This document shows positions 52,428 to 62,248 of a stretch of 64,000 nucleotides of DNA, in pieces. Numbering within the stretch: the first letter of the stretch is position 1; the number at the start of each line of letters is the position of its first letter. The DNA lies in NCBI GenBank assembly GCA_949289845.1, contig CASEPN010000002.1, forward strand, positions 124,001-188,000, read 5' to 3'. The position numbers and the translations under genes were made by a program. Under the pieces are notes generated by a model, which worked only from the letters and a program-made list of their open reading frames with translations, made no database searches and was not told the origin of the DNA. Origin of the DNA: an uncultured Bacillota bacterium (lineage in GTDB: Bacteria > Bacillota_I > Bacilli_A > RFN20 > CAG-826).

Positions 52428-52505
52428 TGACAAAAAATACGGCGTATAAATTGTCAGTTGCTCCAGAAAATACACCAAAAGATTTGTCGGTCATCTCGAT
52501 GCAAG

Positions 52506-52511
52506 TATCCT
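52506..52511 (+). promoter_or_regulatory. -10 box TATCCT, leaderless spacing
   Basis: TATCCT ends 6 nt before the ATG at 52518. This is the same box and near-identical spacing as at pcrA. Confidence 0.4.
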
Positions 52512-52517
52512 TGGCAT

Positions 52518-53873
52518 ATGTTCAGAAGGAAGGTTGAAGGCCTCCTGAGCGCTTGGAAGGAGGCCCCGGGGAAGACCCCTTTGCTCATCAGGGGACTAAG
52601 GCGGAGCGGGAAGAAGACCATTGCGAAGGCCTTTGCCCAATCCTCTTATCGGAACTTCTGTGTTTTGGACATGGAGGCGGAGCCTTCTCTCCATCGCGCC
52701 TTTGCCGGATCGTTGGGTCCTGAGGAAATCATTTCGCGGTTATCCCTTGTTCGCCCAGATGTGAGGGTTACGCCAGGAAACAGCGTCTTGGTCCTTGGGG
52801 AGATCCAGGACTGCGCCAGGGCAAGGGCGTCTCTTCGCTACTTCAAGGAGTCTGGCAAGTACGGCGTGATCGCCACGAGCTCGTTCGCGGACATCAGGAA
52901 CTATAACCGCGACCCAGGCCTTTCCATTCCTGTCGGGAGCGAACGCTACATTCACATGCTTCCGCTCGATTTCGAGGAGTTTCTCTGGGCCATGGGGCAC
53001 GAAGCCTTGAACAACGAAATCCGCAGCTCTCTGCTTTCGCTTTCTCCTTTGCCCGAGCTCGTTCATGAAAAGGCAGAGGGACTCTATCGTTCCTTCCTTG
53101 TGGCGGGCGGCATGCCGGAGGCTGTCGAAGGCTTCCTCCACGGCGGGTATTCGGCCTGCCGGAAAGCGTGTCGCGCATTAATGGATGCATACAAGGATGA
53201 CTTCGGCCGTTATATCGGCAAGGATGGCAAGCCGGACATGGACGGCGTCCTTTTCGCCAAGATTAGGAAAGCCCTGGCTTCGATCACGGAGCAGATCGCA
53301 GATGAGAAAGGGGCGTTCGCATACTCCAGGATAGGGAATGGCGCCCGCAGGCGATCGTTTGAAAATGCGCTTGATTGGCTCGAGGGGTACGGCCTCGTTT
53401 ATCGCTGTCGCCTGCTCGAGAGAATTTCCACGCCCTTGCTGGTCCATGAGGACGACGAGACTTTCAAGCTCTATATCGCCGATACGGGTCTCCTGCTCTC
53501 TTTGCTCGATGAGGGCATACGGAGGGAGGACATGGGCGAAATCTATCGAGGGGCGCTATATGAGAACGCTGTCGCAGCAGCGCTCCACTCAAATGGTTCC
53601 CCGCTCCGTTACTACAAGCGCCGGAGCGGCTTGGAAATCGATTTTGTCATTTCCCTGGGCGGTCGCCCCGTCCTCCTTGAGGCCAAGGCCCGGGGAGGGA
53701 GGAGCAAGTCGCTTTCCACCGTCCTCGCGGATAAGAAGACATACGGGGACGAGAACATCCGCGCGATCAAGCTTACGAGCGCGCCTCTCTCGGTGTCTCC
53801 CGACGGCGAGACCATCCACATGCCCCATTACTGCCTTCCCTATCTGACGCCGGACATGGATCTCTTTGGGTAA
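52518..53873 (+). CDS. AAA ATPase with DUF4143 domain
   Basis: A 451-aa protein of the family with an N-terminal ATPase and a C-terminal DUF4143/PD-(D/E)xK-like part. I use ATG 52518; the frame is open 20 codons further. The P-loop is IRGLRRSGKKTIAKAFA, with Lys-Lys where most members have Lys-Thr. LVLGEIQDCARARASLRYFKES is the Walker B region with the Asp replaced (LGEIQ), and VIATSSFADI follows. The C-terminus shows KLYIADTGLLLSLL and the nuclease-like LEIDFVISLGGRPVLLEAKARGG. The family is common in anaerobes; its function is not established. Confidence 0.85.
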   Translation: MFRRKVEGLLSAWKEAPGKTPLLIRGLRRSGKKTIAKAFAQSSYRNFCVLDMEAEPSLHRAFAGSLGPEEIISRLSLVRPDVRVTPGNSVLVLGEIQDCARARASLRYFKESGKYGVIATSSFADIRNYNRDPGLSIPVGSERYIHMLPLDFEEFLWAMGHEALNNEIRSSLLSLSPLPELVHEKAEGLYRSFLVAGGMPEAVEGFLHGGYSACRKACRALMDAYKDDFGRYIGKDGKPDMDGVLFAKIRKALASITEQIADEKGAFAYSRIGNGARRRSFENALDWLEGYGLVYRCRLLERISTPLLVHEDDETFKLYIADTGLLLSLLDEGIRREDMGEIYRGALYENAVAAALHSNGSPLRYYKRRSGLEIDFVISLGGRPVLLEAKARGGRSKSLSTVLADKKTYGDENIRAIKLTSAPLSVSPDGETIHMPHYCLPYLTPDMDLFG

Positions 53874-53921: not shown

Positions 53922-54005
53922 TATAACCCGTCTATGGAGCTAGGGACGACGAAAAACAAAAGCGCCCTGATCAGGGGCGCTTCCGTTTGTCCGCATTCGG
54001 ACTGA
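53922..54005 (+). other. Promoter-like TATAAC plus 24-codon ORF antisense to tracrRNA
   Basis: TATAAC (53922-53927) lies 6 nt before an ATG at 53934 that opens a 23-residue frame (MELGTTKNKSALIRGASVCP...) ending at 54005. The spacing is the leaderless arrangement seen elsewhere. Transcription from here would run antisense through the tracrRNA into cas9. The small protein itself is doubtful. Confidence 0.3.
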
Positions 54006-54070
54006 GGAGTCGGACGTCCCGCTAGGGGAGCTTCCTTATTTGGACTCGCAGTGCTGATTCGGGTCAGCAC
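53952..54070 (-). ncRNA. tracrRNA of the type II-A CRISPR system
   Basis: The minus strand from about 54070 reads an anti-repeat complementary to the first ~24 nt of the CRISPR repeat (forward copy 54039-54063: TTTGG, a 6-nt mismatch/bulge, CAGTG, one change, TGATTCGGG). An AAAUAAGG segment like that after the anti-repeat of other type II-A tracrRNAs follows, then hairpins at forward 54000-54011 (GACT/AGTC) and 53989-54002 (GTCCG/CGGAC), and a terminator GCGCCC...GGGCGC (53980-53962) with a TTTTGTTTTT tract (53961-53952). Predicted length is about 119 nt. The -10 is TATATT (54080-54075). Location upstream of cas9 on the opposite strand matches classical II-A loci. Confidence 0.88.
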
Positions 54071-54074
54071 AGGG

Positions 54075-54080
54075 AATATA
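54075..54080 (-). promoter_or_regulatory. tracrRNA -10 box TATATT
   Basis: Minus-strand TATATT places the transcript start at about 54068-54070, exactly at the beginning of the anti-repeat hairpin. No good -35 is visible. The cas9 Shine-Dalgarno (GGAGG, 54091-54095) lies just beyond. Confidence 0.5.
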
Positions 54081-54105
54081 GCACAAAATCGGAGGAGCAA
54101 GAGGT

Positions 54106-57100
54106 ATGGCGAAGAAATATCTGATGGGTCTCGACATCGGCACGGACTCCGTCGGCTGGTGCGTGACGGACGAGACCGGGGCGATCGTCAAGAAGAGCGG
54201 CAAGTACCTCTGGGGCGTGCGTCTATTTGATCAAGCCAAAGCGAAGGCCGATAGAAGGATGCAGCGCGTGGCAAGGAGGCGCCTTGCCCGTCGCGCCAGG
54301 AGGATTGACCTTCTCCAGATGCTCTTCGCCAAGGAGATGAACAAGGTCGACCCACTCTTCTTCACCAGGCTCAACAACTCCTTCCTCTGGGAAGAGGACA
54401 AGGACGAGGCTCTTGCTGGCGAGAAGGAAAGGGCGAGGCACGACGCTTTGTTCGCCGGAGTTAAGGTTCCTGGCCTTCCGGACATGACGGACACGAAGTT
54501 CCACAGGCTATATCCGACCATCCATCATCTGAGGAAACACCTGATGGAGGAAGAGGAACCCGATATCCGTCTCGTGTACCTGGGCATCCATCACATGATC
54601 AAGTACCGCGGGAACTTCCTTCATGAGGGATTGGATCCGAGAGGGGCGGCCGAGGTCCTGGAATCGTTCTCGATGCTGGCGGACGCGGTCGACGCCGCCT
54701 TGAACGATGGCGTCCAGGATGCTGAAAGCGTCTTCCGCATGGAGGAAGGCGACGAACGTTTCGTCGAATTCAAGAAGGCGGCTCGGAACACGAGGGGGAA
54801 AAGAAACCTATCGAGCGAACTCGAAAAGATCTTTGGGGGGAAGTCCAACTATGTCGTCAAGGTGGTCTGCTCGCTCCTGGCGGCAAGGAAGACGAGCTTC
54901 AAGGACATCTTCTCCTATGACGAGGAGATTGAGCTAGAAGACCCCAAGGCCGCGATCGAGGTCGACAAGGACAATTTCGAAGGAGAGCAGCTCGTCGCGC
55001 TTGCCGCTGTGGCAGGAGACGATTCCGCCGGGTATCGGGTAGTGGTCGCGGCCAAACGCATCGCCGACTACATTTCCATGCAGCGTCTTCTCGGGAATGC
55101 GAATACCTTGAGCGAGGCCATGGTACGTCGCTATGAGGAGCACAGGGACGATCTTAAGTGGCTCAAGGGCTGGGTAAAAGAACATTGTCCGGAGAAGTAC
55201 GACGAGGTGTTCAATCAACTGGAGGAAAAGAAGAACAACTACGCCCGCTACATCGGTGCTTCCCACGGAAAGTCGGGGAAGCACTGCAAGTACGATGACT
55301 TCATCATCTTCCTCAAGAAGAACGTCTTCACCTATAAAGACGAGAATGGGAAGGACGTCACCTACGAGGGAGACCCTGAAGTCGTCGAGCACTTCTACAC
55401 GAAGTTGGAAGAGGAAGGGTTCCTTCCGAAGCAGAACTCCTCTTTGAACGGGGTTTTCCCCTATCAGCTTCATCTTGCCGAACTGAAGAAGGTGATTGAA
55501 CGCCAGAAAGGGCGGTTCCCCTTCCTTGCCGAGGAAACCTATAAGCGGAAGGATGGAGTGGAGGTCAACAAGCTTGAGTCCATTTTGACTTGGAGGATTC
55601 CTTACTTCGTAGGGCCTCTCAATCCGTTCCACCCGCAGCATGGCGAGAACGTCTGGGCCGTGATGGACGATTCCCAGAGATGGAAGGCCATCTATCCGTG
55701 GTCGATGGAAGACCAGGTCGACTATGGGGAGAGCGCGGAGCGGTTCATCAAGAAGATGACCAATCGCTGCACCTATGTGGAAGGCGCGGACTGTCTTCCC
55801 CGTTGGTCATTGCTCTACACGTACTACGATACCCTCAACTGGCTTGCCGGCCTTCAGATCAACGGGAAGCCGATTCCTTGGACTGCCGAGCCGGAGACTA
55901 CCGGCGAAATCGGGAGAAAGGAAATCATCGAAGGTTACTTCAAGAAGCAAGTCCGCCCGACCATGAAGGGGCTCAAGGAATTCATCAAGAGCGAGCTTGG
56001 ACCCAACGCGAAGATCGCCTACTCCAGCGGCAAGGAACTGGAGGACAAGCTCATACCCTCGATGAGGCCGTGGGTCGACTTTGCTGACCTTATCGCCCAG
56101 GGCAGGGAGAAGGACGTTGAGGATGCTATCCTCGCCATCACCCTTTTCGAGGACAAGAAGACTCGCAAGAGTCGCATCAAGAAAATCTTTTCTGACGTCG
56201 CCGATGAGAGACTGAACAAGATTTCTTCCCTTTCGTACACGAAGTTCGGTCGCCTTTCCAGAGAGTTCCTCCAATTGAAGTCCATGATCGCGGACGAGGA
56301 GACCGGGGAGGTCACCGAGGGCTACACTCTTCTAGAAATTATGGAGAGGACCGGGCAGACCATGATGGCCGTCCTCCATAACGAGAAGTACGGCTTTGGG
56401 GAACAGCTGGACCGGATTCGCAGGGAGAAGCTGGGCTCTGCATCCGATGACCCGGAACAAAGAGTGATGGACTACATCGAAGAGCTGTATGTGTCTCCTT
56501 TGATGAAGCGCCCCCTCATCCAGGCGTGGAGAATCATCCAGGAAGTCCAGGGCAAGATCCTCCATGCCTCGATCGACGAGTTCTACGTCGAGTGCACCAG
56601 GGTCACCGACTCCGGGAAGAAGGGGCAGAGGACGAAGTCCCGCTTCGAGGTGGTGGAGAGTTTCCTGAAGGAAGCTGAAAAACTTTCCGCGGGGGATGAC
56701 TCGGTCTATAGCGGAGACCTTAAAAAGCGCCTTAACGATCTTCGGAACGAAAAGGATCAGGCCCGCTATCGGAGCGACAAGCTGTATCTCTATTTCATGC
56801 AGCTCGGCCGCTGCGCTTATTCCTTGAAGGAAATCGACATTCACCGCCTCATGACAGAGGATGACTACTGCGAGATCGACCACATCATTCCGCAGTCCCT
56901 TGTGAAGGACGACAGCATCGAAAATCGTGTTCTCGTGATTCATGAATATAACCAGAAGAAAGCGGCGAGATTCCCGATTCCCCAGGAGGTTCTTGCGCCG
57001 GGGGCCCGTGCGTTCCATGACTATCTCCATCGCCTCAAGCTCATCGGGGACAAGAAGCACAAAAACCTAACTCGCCGGAAGGAGTTGACCGAGGACGAGC

Positions 57101-58575
57101 TCATGGAGTTCACGAACCGCCAGCTCACCACGACGAACCAGGCGGTCATCGCCACCATCGACCTCATCAAGACGTTTCTGAGGCGGACGGATGGCAGCGT
57201 CCCTGTCGTCCGTTACTCGAAGGCCGATCTTGTGAGCACGTTCCGCCAGGAGTTCGATATCCTGAAATGCCGCGACGCGAACGACCTTCACCACGCGCAC
57301 GACGCGTACCTCAACATCATCGTCGGGCGCACGATGTGGGCCTACTACCCGGAGGCCACGGTGATCCGAAGGAAGAAGGCGCAGGAGGCGCTCAAGGAAA
57401 TTCAGGCGGATTCCGTCACTACGGAAAATACTGACCCCCAGAGGCAGAAAACCACCGTCTTCCAGAAAATCTTCATGGACTACCCCGCGAAGGTCGGGAG
57501 GCACAAGGACCCGATTTTGGATCAGGATAAGAACGTCGTATGGGCATATGGCAAAACCCTTTCCGAGGTCGAGAAGAACATCTACGGGAGACAGGGCACC
57601 GTCCTTTGCAGCATCAGGACGTACGTCGACCGATCCTTGTTCAAGGAGGTCGGTCTTCATGAAGCCGCCAGGAAGACGGGGGAAAATCTATTCCCGATCA
57701 AGGAAGGCATGGATCCTGACAAGTACGGAGGGTACAACTCCCTGAAGGTCGGCTTCTTCTCTATCATCCTTGAGAATGCGGGTGGTAAGAAAGGGCTCCG
57801 GCCCAGGCTGATTCCGGTCCAGACCATGGCCGCGCCTACGCTTGCCGTCGCGGATATTGAAAGTTATGCGCGGAAATATCTCGCAAAGAACTCGCCCAAG
57901 TCGAGCCTAGCCAAGGTCTTGGTCCCGGTCGTTCGTATCAATTCGCAGTTCCGACGGGGGAATTCTGCTGTTCGAATTTCGGGGGCTAATGGATTCACTG
58001 CCACTTGGGCCCAACCCATTACCCAGCCAATATTCCCGAAGGAATACTACCTCACAATTCGTGCGCTCCACAGGGTTATTGGTGAGGCGGAACGCTCTCA
58101 TGGCAGTTCCATAACAAAGGTGTCTGATTTGCGTGGCGCCCTTAGTGATGGCGCCTACTTCACCTTCTGGGACCAGACTCACATTCACGTGAGTGGTTCT
58201 CTCAAGAGGAATACCAAACCTGTGACGCTTACTTCCGATCAGCTCGTGGAACTGTATCAAGAGATTGGGCGGAAGCTAGTCTCTGACCTCTATTCCAAAA
58301 TTCCGTCTGCTTCCTTCCATTTGGGGGAGAAGATGATTATTGCGGCTGGAGACTTCATGCGATTGGACATTCCGGAGCAATGCTTGGTGATGAATGGGAT
58401 ACTTACCGTTCTTGCTCCAAGGAGAGGCGATGTTGCAGATCTTTCCCTATTGGGGATTGGCAAGAGTGGAAGCAAGATTCTGAGCAACCTTCTGACGTCA
58501 GGAATTCAACTTGTCCACCAATCCGTAACAGGCTTCTTTGAAAAGGTCGTCTGGGAGGCTCCTGCCGAGCAGTGA
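54106..58575 (+). CDS. cas9: CRISPR-associated endonuclease Cas9, type II-A
   Basis: RNA-guided double-strand DNA nuclease of 1489 aa, longer than the well-known 1368-aa streptococcal enzyme. RuvC-I: KKYLMGLDIGTDSVGW with D10. The Arg-rich bridge helix is RRMQRVARRRLARRARRIDLLQ. The REC lobe holds MIKYRGNFLHEG and LTWRIPYFVGPLNP blocks. RuvC-II is IDEFYVECTR (E829). HNH: CEIDHIIPQSLVKDDSIENRVL with D925-H926 and the downstream Asn. RuvC-III is HHAHDAYLN (H1065, D1066). The PAM-interacting end has PDKYGGYNSLKVGFF and finishes LVHQSVTGFFEKV. All catalytic residues are present. From about residue 1278 codon use turns AT-richer. Confidence 0.98.
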   Translation: MAKKYLMGLDIGTDSVGWCVTDETGAIVKKSGKYLWGVRLFDQAKAKADRRMQRVARRRLARRARRIDLLQMLFAKEMNKVDPLFFTRLNNSFLWEEDKDEALAGEKERARHDALFAGVKVPGLPDMTDTKFHRLYPTIHHLRKHLMEEEEPDIRLVYLGIHHMIKYRGNFLHEGLDPRGAAEVLESFSMLADAVDAALNDGVQDAESVFRMEEGDERFVEFKKAARNTRGKRNLSSELEKIFGGKSNYVVKVVCSLLAARKTSFKDIFSYDEEIELEDPKAAIEVDKDNFEGEQLVALAAVAGDDSAGYRVVVAAKRIADYISMQRLLGNANTLSEAMVRRYEEHRDDLKWLKGWVKEHCPEKYDEVFNQLEEKKNNYARYIGASHGKSGKHCKYDDFIIFLKKNVFTYKDENGKDVTYEGDPEVVEHFYTKLEEEGFLPKQNSSLNGVFPYQLHLAELKKVIERQKGRFPFLAEETYKRKDGVEVNKLESILTWRIPYFVGPLNPFHPQHGENVWAVMDDSQRWKAIYPWSMEDQVDYGESAERFIKKMTNRCTYVEGADCLPRWSLLYTYYDTLNWLAGLQINGKPIPWTAEPETTGEIGRKEIIEGYFKKQVRPTMKGLKEFIKSELGPNAKIAYSSGKELEDKLIPSMRPWVDFADLIAQGREKDVEDAILAITLFEDKKTRKSRIKKIFSDVADERLNKISSLSYTKFGRLSREFLQLKSMIADEETGEVTEGYTLLEIMERTGQTMMAVLHNEKYGFGEQLDRIRREKLGSASDDPEQRVMDYIEELYVSPLMKRPLIQAWRIIQEVQGKILHASIDEFYVECTRVTDSGKKGQRTKSRFEVVESFLKEAEKLSAGDDSVYSGDLKKRLNDLRNEKDQARYRSDKLYLYFMQLGRCAYSLKEIDIHRLMTEDDYCEIDHIIPQSLVKDDSIENRVLVIHEYNQKKAARFPIPQEVLAPGARAFHDYLHRLKLIGDKKHKNLTRRKELTEDELMEFTNRQLTTTNQAVIATIDLIKTFLRRTDGSVPVVRYSKADLVSTFRQEFDILKCRDANDLHHAHDAYLNIIVGRTMWAYYPEATVIRRKKAQEALKEIQADSVTTENTDPQRQKTTVFQKIFMDYPAKVGRHKDPILDQDKNVVWAYGKTLSEVEKNIYGRQGTVLCSIRTYVDRSLFKEVGLHEAARKTGENLFPIKEGMDPDKYGGYNSLKVGFFSIILENAGGKKGLRPRLIPVQTMAAPTLAVADIESYARKYLAKNSPKSSLAKVLVPVVRINSQFRRGNSAVRISGANGFTATWAQPITQPIFPKEYYLTIRALHRVIGEAERSHGSSITKVSDLRGALSDGAYFTFWDQTHIHVSGSLKRNTKPVTLTSDQLVELYQEIGRKLVSDLYSKIPSASFHLGEKMIIAAGDFMRLDIPEQCLVMNGILTVLAPRRGDVADLSLLGIGKSGSKILSNLLTSGIQLVHQSVTGFFEKVVWEAPAEQ

Positions 58576-58578
58576 CCT

Positions 58579-59451
58579 ATGTCCTGGCGCACCGTGGTCA
58601 TCCGTAACCGCTGCAAGCTGGAATACTCGATGAACTACATGGTGTGCCGGGGGGAAGACGAAACCCGGATCAACGTCGACGAGATTTCGACGATCATCAT
58701 CCAGAACGTCGGAGTCTCGATGACCGCCGCCCTCCTTTCCCGACTCATGGAGGCGAAGGTTTCCGTCATCTTCTGCGACCCTAAGTCAAATCCTCAGGGA
58801 CAGCTTCTTCCATACCAAGGGGCCTATGACTCCTACTCCAAGCTCAAGCAGCAGATGGGCTGGCTTCCAGGAACGAAAGGCCTCCTTTGGCAACGGATCA
58901 TCCAAGAGAAGATTAACCGTCAGGCGGACAATCTGGAGAAGTACGGCAAGGAAGGGTCTCCGTCTCTTCGTCATCTCGCGGACATCACCCTCCCTGGCGA
59001 TAAGGAGAATCAAGAAGGACATGCGGCAAGGGTGTATTTCTCCTCGTGCTTCGGGTCGAACTTCCAGCGATCCGCGAAGGAAGCCGAGACGAATATCTTG
59101 TTGAACTATGGCTACAGCATCCTTCTCTCTTCCATTTCAAGGGAGATTAAGTCTTTCGGCTACCTTACTGAGCTAGGCATTCATCACATCGGGGTTTCTA
59201 ACCCCTTCAACCTTTCCTGCGACTTTGTTGAACCTTTAAGGCCCTACGTGGATTCCTACGTCCTCGCGGGCAAGGCCACGAAGGAAAACTTCAAGGACTC
59301 ACTCATCCGCATGCTCGCGGACAAGGTGTACTTCGATGGCGCGGAGATGTTCTTTGAGAACGCGATCCACAGCTACGTTCAAGGCTGCCTTCTCTCGTTG
59401 AAGGAAAACAATCCGGAGGGCGCGAAGTTCATCCGCTATGAACTCCCTTAG
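58579..59451 (+). CDS. cas1: CRISPR integrase Cas1
   Basis: Catalytic subunit of the spacer integrase, 290 aa. The start MSWRTVVIRNRCKLEYSMNYMVCRGEDETRINVDEISTIIIQNVGVSMTAALLSRL is the type II Cas1 N-terminal beta domain. The active site is visible as the Glu of AKEAETNILLNYGYSIL, the His pair in LGIHHIGVSNPFNLSCDFVEPLRPYVD, and the following Asp-x-x-Glu. It begins 3 nt after the cas9 stop, and its end overlaps cas2 by 14 nt. Confidence 0.97.
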   Translation: MSWRTVVIRNRCKLEYSMNYMVCRGEDETRINVDEISTIIIQNVGVSMTAALLSRLMEAKVSVIFCDPKSNPQGQLLPYQGAYDSYSKLKQQMGWLPGTKGLLWQRIIQEKINRQADNLEKYGKEGSPSLRHLADITLPGDKENQEGHAARVYFSSCFGSNFQRSAKEAETNILLNYGYSILLSSISREIKSFGYLTELGIHHIGVSNPFNLSCDFVEPLRPYVDSYVLAGKATKENFKDSLIRMLADKVYFDGAEMFFENAIHSYVQGCLLSLKENNPEGAKFIRYELP

Positions 59452-59761
59452 GTGCATGAGGCTTATCCTATTCTTCGACCTCCCCGTCACCTCCGACTCT
59501 GAAAGGAAGGCGTACACGCGCTTCGTCAAAGCGCTCAAGAAGCAAGGTTTCTACCGCCTTCAATACTCCGTTTACATCAAGCTCAACATGGACGACAGGG
59601 CCGCTCAGAGTTCCATAAAGCAGGTCCGTGAAATCCTTCCAAAAGACGGGATGGTGGCCATACTCAAGGTGACCGAGAAGCAGTTCGCAGGCATCGACTA
59701 TCTTCTCGGGGCTCCGGAAAGCGACGTCCTTACGACGGACGAAAGGGTGGTGACCATATGA
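59438..59761 (+). CDS. cas2: CRISPR integrase subunit Cas2
   Basis: A 107-aa ferredoxin-like protein that bridges Cas1 dimers. The core is MRLILFFDLPVTSDSERKAYTRFVKALKKQGFYRLQYSVYIKLN, with the usual Asp in FFDLPV, and ends in LKVTEKQFAGIDYLLG. Two starts are possible: ATG 59438 (MNSLRCMRL), resembling the N-terminal extension of other II-A Cas2 proteins, or ATG 59456. Neither has a good Shine-Dalgarno. The longer form overlaps cas1, which fits translational coupling. Confidence 0.95.
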   Translation: MNSLRCMRLILFFDLPVTSDSERKAYTRFVKALKKQGFYRLQYSVYIKLNMDDRAAQSSIKQVREILPKDGMVAILKVTEKQFAGIDYLLGAPESDVLTTDERVVTI

Positions 59762-60420
59762 TCAGGCTTCGGACAAGCATGTTCTCCTTTCCGATCGACA
59801 TGGAACCAGGGGACATCGTCTCGCTCGTGGTGGAGAACAAGAAGCTTTATAGGGACTTATCAACCGCCCTGGACACGCTGGATGAGAGCAGCGTCTTCCT
59901 GTTCCAAGACGGCGGGGAGCGCCAGGCCAAGAAGCATGTCGTTGTGACTAGGGACCTTCTTAACCTCGATCCGAACTCCAAGAAGATCCTCACCGCGATT
60001 TACAAGAAGATCGACAGGACCGCCTTGACCCCGGAACGGAGGGAGAAGTTCGACCGCATCAACCAGGCGATCGCGGAACTCCTCGAGGATTTCGCTTCCG
60101 ATTTCGAAGGGCAGGTCTCCTTCAACGACCAGATTAGCCTGACCCAACTTTTGGGTCACTTCGACTTTAAGTTCGATTATGACGAGTCTTCGTTCCTGAC
60201 CAGCTTCGTCTCCTATTTTCGAGCCTGGAGAGAGGCGATGGATTTGAAGCTCCTCATCACCTACGACCTGTTCGCTTATCTCGAGGAAGAAGAGATCAGC
60301 ACTCTTTCCCAGGAGCTTGGCTACACGGGAATTGCCCTGGTCGATATCGATCACAGCGATGGGAAGCGCTCCGGAGTCAAACGTTTTCTCATCGACAGAG
60401 ACCTCTGCGAGATCTATTGA
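59758..60420 (+). CDS. csn2: CRISPR adaptation protein Csn2
   Basis: A 220-aa member of the Csn2 family, the DNA-end-binding ring protein that defines type II-A and is needed for spacer acquisition. The sequence has the family layout: an N-terminal FPIDMEPGDIVSLVVENKKLYRDLSTAL, a helical middle (KKIDRTALTPERREKFDRINQAIAELLEDFASDFEG), and a C-terminal LKLLITYDLFAYLEEEEISTLSQELGYTGIALVDIDHSD. The ATP-binding loop seen in some relatives is absent, as in standard Csn2. It starts by ATGA overlap with cas2 and ends 116 nt before the array. Confidence 0.93.
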   Translation: MIRLRTSMFSFPIDMEPGDIVSLVVENKKLYRDLSTALDTLDESSVFLFQDGGERQAKKHVVVTRDLLNLDPNSKKILTAIYKKIDRTALTPERREKFDRINQAIAELLEDFASDFEGQVSFNDQISLTQLLGHFDFKFDYDESSFLTSFVSYFRAWREAMDLKLLITYDLFAYLEEEEISTLSQELGYTGIALVDIDHSDGKRSGVKRFLIDRDLCEIY

Positions 60421-60536: not shown

Positions 60537-62147
60537 GTTTGGGAGCAGTGTTGATTCGGGTCAGTGCTCCACCCGGCGATGGCATAGAGGTATGAAACAT
60601 GGGTTTGGGAGCAGTGTTGATTCGGGTCAGTGCTCCACCAGAGTTATTATTTATGGATACTACAAGGAGTTTGGGAGCAGTGTTGATTCGGGTCAGTGCT
60701 CCACGTTCCCGATGGCTTCCTCGGCTATGTCCTTGTTTGGGAGCAGTGTTGATTCGGGTCAGTGCTCCACACTTGGAAGCGGTAATAGTCGGATGTCGCC
60801 GTTTGGGAGCAGTGTTGATTCGGGTCAGTGCTCCACACCCATCGCGGAAGATCTGGGCCAGGGTGCGTTTGGGAGCAGTGTTGATTCGGGTCAGTGCTCC
60901 ACGGAATTCATACGGAAGATGGGAACGGAGGAGTTTGGGAGCAGTGTTGATTCGGGTCAGTGCTCCACCGCTCGCCCATCTGTCGCCGAGGATGTCGCGT
61001 TTGGGAGCAGTGTTGATTCGGGTCAGTGCTCCACCCGACATGGACGACATGGAGGAGTGGCTGAGTTTGGGAGCAGTGTTGATTCGGGTCAGTGCTCCAC
61101 GGGCGAGGTCGAAGACCAAGTAGAGAGCGCGTTTGGGAGCAGTGTTGATTCGGGTCAGTGCTCCACCCACACGTTGACGGAAGTCCCGCATGGTTCGTTT
61201 GGGAGCAGTGTTGATTCGGGTCAGTGCTCCACTCTACCTCGACGACATCCAAGATCTAGAGGGTTTGGGAGCAGTGTTGATTCGGGTCAGTGCTCCACGA
61301 GAAAGGAGCAACAAATGACCATTTGGGAGTTTGGGAGCAGTGTTGATTCGGGTCAGTGCTCCACTGAAGGCCTTCGAGCTCAAGCAGAAGGCAAGTTTGG
61401 GAGCAGTGTTGATTCGGGTCAGTGCTCCACGTATTCCTTCCGCAGGTCCTGTATGAGCCAGTTTGGGAGCAGTGTTGATTCGGGTCAGTGCTCCACGCAT
61501 CGGGATTGTCGCAGTCTCCTGGCCAAGTTTGGGAGCAGTGTTGATTCGGGTCAGTGCTCCACCACTCCGTTCCGGAGTCGATTCGCGGGGCTGTTTGGGA
61601 GCAGTGTTGATTCGGGTCAGTGCTCCACTCCTCCTCGTAATCGTCTTCCTCGACATCCGTTTGGGAGCAGTGTTGATTCGGGTCAGTGCTCCACAGAAGC
61701 CCATCGCCTAAACCAGTGTAGCCCGTTTGGGAGCAGTGTTGATTCGGGTCAGTGCTCCACAAGAGCGCCAAGGCCATTACGGGCTATATTGTTTGGGAGC
61801 AGTGTTGATTCGGGTCAGTGCTCCACCGAGTTTGAGAGTTGCGAGCGCCCTCGCATGTTTGGGAGCAGTGTTGATTCGGGTCAGTGCTCCACTTGCGCAC
61901 GCGCAGTATTACCAAGCGTGCAGTTTGGGAGCAGTGTTGATTCGGGTCAGTGCTCCACTAGTAGTAGATTTCCGCGCCCGTCCTCTTCGTTTGGGAGCAG
62001 TGTTGATTCGGGTCAGTGCTCCACCCCGCGCGCCATGCCTGGCCTCCCTGGGCCGTTTGGGAGCAGTGTTGATTCGGGTCAGTGCTCCACAGACGTTCGT
62101 CCGGATCGCCATCTCCACCTGTTTGGGAGCAGTGTTGATTCGGGTCA
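60537..62147 (+). CRISPR. CRISPR array: 25 repeats, 24 spacers of 30 bp
   Basis: The 36-bp repeat begins GTTTGGGAGCAG and ends GTCAGTGCTCCAC. Repeats start every 66 bp from 60537 to 62121 without exception, giving 24 unique spacers, each exactly 30 bp. The first 24 repeats are identical. The last (62121-62147) keeps 27 bases, then changes to TTTTTCGTT. The repeat is partly self-complementary: GGAGCA/TGCTCC, a 4/1 internal loop, TGA/TCA, and a TTCGGG loop. Its 5' two thirds pair with the tracrRNA anti-repeat. Spacer base composition varies (one is AT-rich), and several read as coding sequence, consistent with phage or plasmid origin. No duplicate spacers were seen. Confidence 0.99.
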
Positions 62148-62248
62148 TTTTTCGTTTTCACCCCCTATAAGTAATTGCGAAGGGCGCGGATTGAAATTGT
62201 TTGAGCGTGCGTCGGGGCGGCTCAGGCAATCACCCTCGGGCAGCTTCA
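62148..62248. other. Array-distal spacer region
   Basis: About 100 bp between the decayed last repeat and the stop of the convergent transporter gene. It contains a TATAAG at about 62166 but no other recognisable signal. Confidence 0.4.

Follow-up and report, generated by a model that had tools for sequence, protein, structure and literature searches.

The encounter between tracrRNA and pre-crRNA that precedes Cas9 binding has been little studied, and both molecules are commonly drawn as open strands. The locus described here raises the question of whether the anti-repeat of a tracrRNA can be folded onto itself, and how such a molecule would then meet its repeat. If a conserved self-fold is real, guide assembly would amount to strands being exchanged between two structured RNAs, which would bear on its speed, its specificity against host RNAs and the stability of the tracrRNA, as well as on how dual-guide and reprogrammed tracrRNA tools are designed. 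The window, i.e. the whole analysed stretch of 64,000 nucleotides, belongs to a genome of ~1.3 Mb, and profile searches identify its locus as a type II-A CRISPR-Cas system, with cas9, cas1, cas2 and csn2 in one co-directional operon and an accompanying CRISPR array (Table 1).

Table 1. Features of the type II-A locus, given in positions of the window.
Feature	Position	Strand	Basis or detail
tracrRNA (predicted)	53952..54070	-	anti-repeat, nexus-like region, hairpin GTCCGAATGCGGAC, terminator-like hairpin
Terminator-like hairpin with T run, tracrRNA 3' part	~53952-53983	-	fold
CCAAAT, lower stem of the repeat:anti-repeat duplex	54038..54043	-	cofold; partner is repeat GTTTGG
TGCGAGT, proximal upper stem TGC and GAGT bulge side, beyond the hairpin	54044..54050	-	cofold with repeat
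Anti-repeat hairpin, tracrRNA 5' end	54051..54070	-	fold: 7 bp, -9.0 kcal/mol, z -5.6
Hairpin right arm TCAGCAC	54051-54057	-	fold
Hairpin loop CCCGAA	54058-54063	-	fold
Hairpin left arm GTGCTGA	54064-54070	-	fold
Extended -10-like box TGCTATATT	54075..54083	-	home-made -10 matrix
cas9	54106..58575	+	TIGR01865, E 3.8e-211
cas1	58579..59451	+	TIGR03639
cas2	59438..59761	+	TIGR01573
csn2, subtype II-A marker	59758..60420	+	TIGR01866, E 1.1e-37
CRISPR array	60537..62156	+	24 full repeats and a degenerate last one; repeat GTTTGGGAGCAGTGTTGATTCGGGTCAGTGCTCCAC

The predicted tracrRNA resembles the S. pyogenes-type II-A tracrRNA in lying next to cas9 and in combining an anti-repeat, divided into lower stem, bulge and upper stem, with what is predicted to be a nexus-like part and a terminator-like hairpin. 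It differs in that the 5' end of its anti-repeat is predicted to fold back onto itself and in that the left arm of this fold tracks the right arm, not the repeat. The 119-nt molecule folds with -51.7 kcal/mol (z -5.0); the nexus-like and terminator-like hairpins and the T run are visible in this fold, and the 3' end is retained in the nearest relative, locus L031. At their thresholds, the consensus scans returned neither a terminator in the tracrRNA nor a full promoter near it. The final base of the -10-like box lies 4 nt ahead of the hairpin, and the start site suggested by the position of this box makes the hairpin probably the extreme 5' end of the tracrRNA. The gap between this end and cas9 (54071-54105) measures about 35-36 bp. 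With a gap this short (~35 bp), there must be overlap between the cas9 promoter and the tracrRNA gene or the tracrRNA promoter, unless the cas9 promoter sits beyond them; a cas9 mRNA starting upstream would run antisense to the tracrRNA. A further pairing is seen in the fold of the free tracrRNA (54012-54048, minus strand), where GAGUC beside the lower stem pairs with a downstream GACUC, with similar letters retained in L031; the lower stem of the free molecule is thus partly masked as well.

The hairpin itself, GUGCUGA-CCCGAA-UCAGCAC, consists of a perfect 7-bp stem and a 6-nt loop. An earlier note made from the sequence had described this fold and its high stability, and both were confirmed: dinucleotide shuffles reach -1.43 +/- 1.36 kcal/mol on average, 0/200 are as stable as the native stretch, and the fold persists inside the whole 119-nt tracrRNA. 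The span given for it, 53952-54070, is that of the whole tracrRNA, while the hairpin takes up only 54051-54070. The proposed fold of the repeat also holds, with -12.5 kcal/mol and an 11-nt loop that contains UUCGGG, the exact complement of CCCGAA. Together, repeat and anti-repeat cofold with -50.8 kcal/mol, compared with about -10 and -12.5 kcal/mol for the anti-repeat and repeat self-folds. The earlier note had further attributed the complementarity to the copying of a self-complementary repeat, which is correct where the loop is concerned but fails for the stem. The exact repeat complement of the hairpin stretch, GCACTGACCCGAATCAACAC, folds with 0.0 kcal/mol, i.e. without a hairpin, so that the stem is not merely inherited from a palindromic repeat. 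The anti-repeat departs from this complement at three sites (C>T, A>G and A>G), and each departure converts a stem mismatch into a Watson-Crick pair while G-U pairing with the repeat is preserved. When left arms are exchanged, the window's own arm outscores 299/300 swapped arms.

For comparison, Cas9 loci were collected from the family, order and class of the window and by a scan of named genomes, and anti-repeats were located using a lower-stem motif as an anchor, instead of an earlier finder that had given spurious sites in AT-rich genomes. In L031 (genome G200, 79% Cas9 identity), the anti-repeat core is almost the same as that of the window; one outer stem pair is gone and the inner 5 bp are retained. 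At the corresponding stretch the repeat reads GTGCTAATTCGGGTCAG in L031 and GTGTTGATTCGGGTCAG in the window, and this change leaves the hairpin pair intact and makes one duplex position an A-C mismatch. Two further loci of the window's genus, L032 (52% Cas9 identity; GUGCAAGGU-GACCCA-ACUUUGCAU) and L035 (36%; AAUGCUAA-UCCUUU-UUAGCAUU), differ from the window in sequence, with the same 6-nt loop and with the stem base at roughly the same position. Among Clostridia, L140 carries a 14-bp stem (UGAUGUUGUUUCAG-UACCCU-CUGAAACAACAUCA, -19.9 kcal/mol), further strong stems occur in L126, L129, L166, L150 and L170, and in the wider class the hairpin is present in L180, L182, L190, L192 and L194. Carriers include the cultured species Fusicatenibacter saccharivorans (L106) and Intestinimonas butyriciproducens (L114), which opens the hairpin to testing. 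The fold is absent from L039 and L043 and from a group with the anchor GCAAAUAA (L173, L175-L178 and L181), and in the window's family about half of the loci have a weak stem or none, as do several outgroup loci. The hairpin is therefore widespread yet patchy, and the CRISPR system works without it. The earlier note had called for related loci to be compared for covariation; many of these retain a stem through compensating changes. It had also named stem loss alongside a retained repeat match as evidence against its proposal, and this holds for some loci (L039 and L043), so that the hairpin is common but not required.

The sample is devoid of Streptococcus, Lactobacillus and Enterococcus tracrRNAs. 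When 395 genomes were searched by pattern for a Streptococcus-type tracrRNA, only chance-like matches appeared, and plasmid Cas9, taken as a named outgroup, yielded one sgRNA laboratory plasmid and Lactobacillales loci whose anti-repeats were unrecognisable by the pattern used. In 10 clostridial anti-repeats with the same hairpin centre (L116, L126, L140 and others), ACC at the core of the loop never varies (A2 columns 19-21) and faces a GGU or GGG stretch of the repeat.

The main set for statistical analyses comprised 67 non-redundant Firmicutes loci, which are related by descent, and the statistics ignore this kinship. Against dinucleotide shuffles, the 67 anti-repeats have a mean z of -1.61, compared with -0.05 for the upstream region, -0.74 for the exact repeat complements and -1.32 for the repeats. 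The mean best-stem score, observed at 13.46, drops to 10.67 +/- 0.28 when loci exchange their left arms, and 21/67 loci individually reach a value of <=0.05. Shuffling of left arms within loci, which controls for composition and was repeated under three degrees of clustering, the strictest of which left 29 loci, gives a z of about 9, with the upstream control at about 0; overall, the match of left arms to their own right arms exceeds that of swapped or shuffled arms with z about 9-10. In 50 loci, the anti-repeat was compared with the complement of its own repeat, and the stem score is higher for the former (11.7 vs 9.0, p 6e-5). As deviation counts from this comparison are biased by the choice of the best stem, a test based on reversion and random bases was used instead: when right-half departures are returned to the base of the repeat complement, the stem score falls in 20 loci and rises in 6 (p 6e-4), and random other bases likewise give poorer scores (p 4e-4). 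Ten clostridial anti-repeats with one centre show double compensatory changes in 7/7 stem pairs and a covariation score of 0.689, compared with 0.266 +/- 0.053 for shuffles (0/500 as high); this set was selected for having hairpins, and the weight lies with the swap, within-locus shuffle and reversion tests. Within the window's own family (26 loci), the signal is weaker and patchy (z 3.5). Across many type II-A loci, the left arm thus tracks the right arm and the right arm tracks the repeat, as shown by computation, and the compensatory changes that preserve the stem are those expected of a structured RNA element under selection. Evolution seems to want this hairpin, perhaps as a means of controlling how tracrRNA and crRNA meet.

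How this meeting might begin was addressed through seed energies, which, like all folds described here, are predictions. In the window, the net energy of the 7-nt loop seed ACCCGAA comes to -7.7 kcal/mol, with opening costs of 1.2 for the seed and 0.6 for its site in the repeat, whereas the lower-stem seed UCCAAAU stands at +4.6 kcal/mol because both of its sides are folded. Among 27 strong-stem loci, the best seed is the loop in 14, a 3' toehold in 9 and another site in 4. Loop seeds are unaffected by the hairpin, the other seeds become weaker by ~1 kcal/mol (p 0.013) and the best seed stays the same; the apparent effect of the hairpin is therefore to concentrate pairing at the loop, not to prevent it, and neither an acceleration nor a strong gate is supported. 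The kissing-loop start put forward in the earlier note agrees with the window, where the loop is the most open first contact, but less well with other loci, where the single-stranded 3' toehold often makes the better seed, and the best seed overall does not change once the hairpin is removed. CopA and CopT are a plasmid antisense RNA pair that starts by loop-loop (kissing) contact. The RNAs of the window are predicted to share with such pairs two hairpins with accessible, exactly complementary loops (CCCGAA/UUCGGG) and a full duplex as the end state. They differ in that the outcome would be a productive guide duplex instead of copy-number control, that kissing is here a prediction, and that tracrRNA hairpin loops range from 3-8 nt with no shared U-turn motif seen. 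A first contact at the loop, and with it a kissing-type start, is plausible for the window.

The reading we prefer, with a probability of roughly 0.5, is that the 5'-terminal hairpin caps and partly self-sequesters the free tracrRNA, which would then engage the repeat through loop-first strand exchange. In this view the tracrRNA carries the hairpin at its 5' terminus from synthesis on, with loop and 3' arm supplied by the anti-repeat, and such an overlap implies that the free molecule is both capped and partly withheld from pairing. The pre-crRNA repeat hairpin, with UUCGGG open in its loop, may meet the open CCCGAA loop first, and strand exchange could then extend the contact to the complete opening of both hairpins. 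The resulting long repeat:anti-repeat duplex would be available to RNase III for cleavage and to Cas9 for binding. The likely gain would be protection of the 5' end and a safeguard by which the anti-repeat is opened by a true repeat alone; faster pairing, the filtering of false partners and shielding of the 5' end are all conceivable functions on the basis of the folding models. A more far-reaching version, in which a widespread and undescribed hairpin co-evolves with the repeat, assembly starts loop to loop and the stem filters cellular RNAs that partly resemble the repeat, is possible but doubtful.

Some of these observations could be accommodated in other ways. Since 5'-terminal stem-loops generally stabilise bacterial RNAs, the hairpin might only protect the 5' end against 5'-dependent decay, with no role in repeat recognition and with the anti-repeat overlap as a matter of economy. 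Most strong hairpins start just behind -10-like boxes and the overall nucleation energy is unchanged by the hairpin, both of which are in keeping with this account; a stabiliser could, however, sit upstream and spare the anti-repeat bases, whereas the right arm lies within the anti-repeat in most strong cases, and changes occur that harm repeat pairing yet preserve the stem. We consider protection alone unlikely, though a serious contender. The stem could also be a by-product of an anti-repeat that copies a partly palindromic repeat, free of selection. Repeats do self-fold and their complements do so a little (mean z -1.32 and -0.74), and loop complementarity arises automatically, but the exact complement in the window has no fold, anti-repeats outfold repeat complements, a match persists even for left arms lying outside the repeat complement, and the deviations restore the stem, making this origin highly improbable.

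Alternatively, the palindrome may act at the DNA level, as an operator over the tracrRNA start or the region upstream of cas9. Its position at the inferred transcription start, about 35-36 bp from cas9, would suit an operator, and the asymmetry between G-U and A-C counts, by which an RNA stem could be told from a DNA palindrome, does not separate the two (13 vs 13, p 0.26). Nevertheless, no operator sequence is seen to be shared among the loci, and the arms vary with the repeat of each locus, even between relatives, so that a regulator would have to co-diverge; an operator is improbable. Least probable by our estimate is that the left arm mimics the repeat and makes the tracrRNA a natural single guide with which Cas9 represses its own promoter, as in S. 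pyogenes tracr-L. The latter is a longer transcript that includes a guide and is known as a self-targeting single guide (PMC11417352). Its upstream segment likewise pairs with the anti-repeat intramolecularly, and the left arm of the hairpin can imitate part of the repeat (e.g. AATCTCA vs repeat AATTTCA), but a lower-stem mimic is present upstream in 7/67 loci only and missing in 60/67, and a hairpin that begins at the inferred 5' end leaves no room for a guide. The window, in contrast to tracr-L as described there (PMC11417352), has only the short 5'-terminal hairpin, with neither guide nor lower-stem mimic; a search upstream for the latter found none, and a guide of the tracr-L type is disfavoured.

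Cellular RNAs can pair with the anti-repeat and act as guides, giving noncanonical crRNAs and reprogrammed tracrRNAs (PMC8224270), and this is the kind of mispairing that a self-folded anti-repeat could limit; the available part of that description makes no mention of a self-fold. Repeat:anti-repeat pairing, tracr-L and cellular RNAs on the anti-repeat are covered by PMC11417352, PMC6882279, PMC7606464 and PMC8224270, whose available parts contain no account of an anti-repeat folded on itself. More broadly, the open full-text literature, as searched, yielded no account of an anti-repeat that pairs with itself, is sequestered or takes part in kissing. The hairpin is thus provisionally regarded as an undescribed feature of a known RNA, the tracrRNA, and not as a new type of system.

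Further observations concern the surroundings of the tracrRNA. An open frame of 471 aa (52458-53873) adjoins it on the upstream side; it has no match in an NCBIfam search and, judged by eye, is presumably like AAA ATPases of the DUF4143 kind. Rfam returned no matches over the whole window, and neither the array spacers, compared with a phage collection, nor the tracrRNA region, compared with phages by blastn, gave a match. All spacers are 30 nt long and the repeats are identical apart from the last, which starts at 62121 and is degenerate (GTTTGGGAGCAGTGTTGATTCGGGTCATTTTTCGTT). Finally, L059 (genome G202), from the same genus as the window, carries a distant Cas9; its repeat, GATTCCGACCCCTGCTAAAAGGTTCTGCTAATCTAC, is a different one, it has an anti-repeat-like match of its own, and it likely represents another type II subgroup within this genus.
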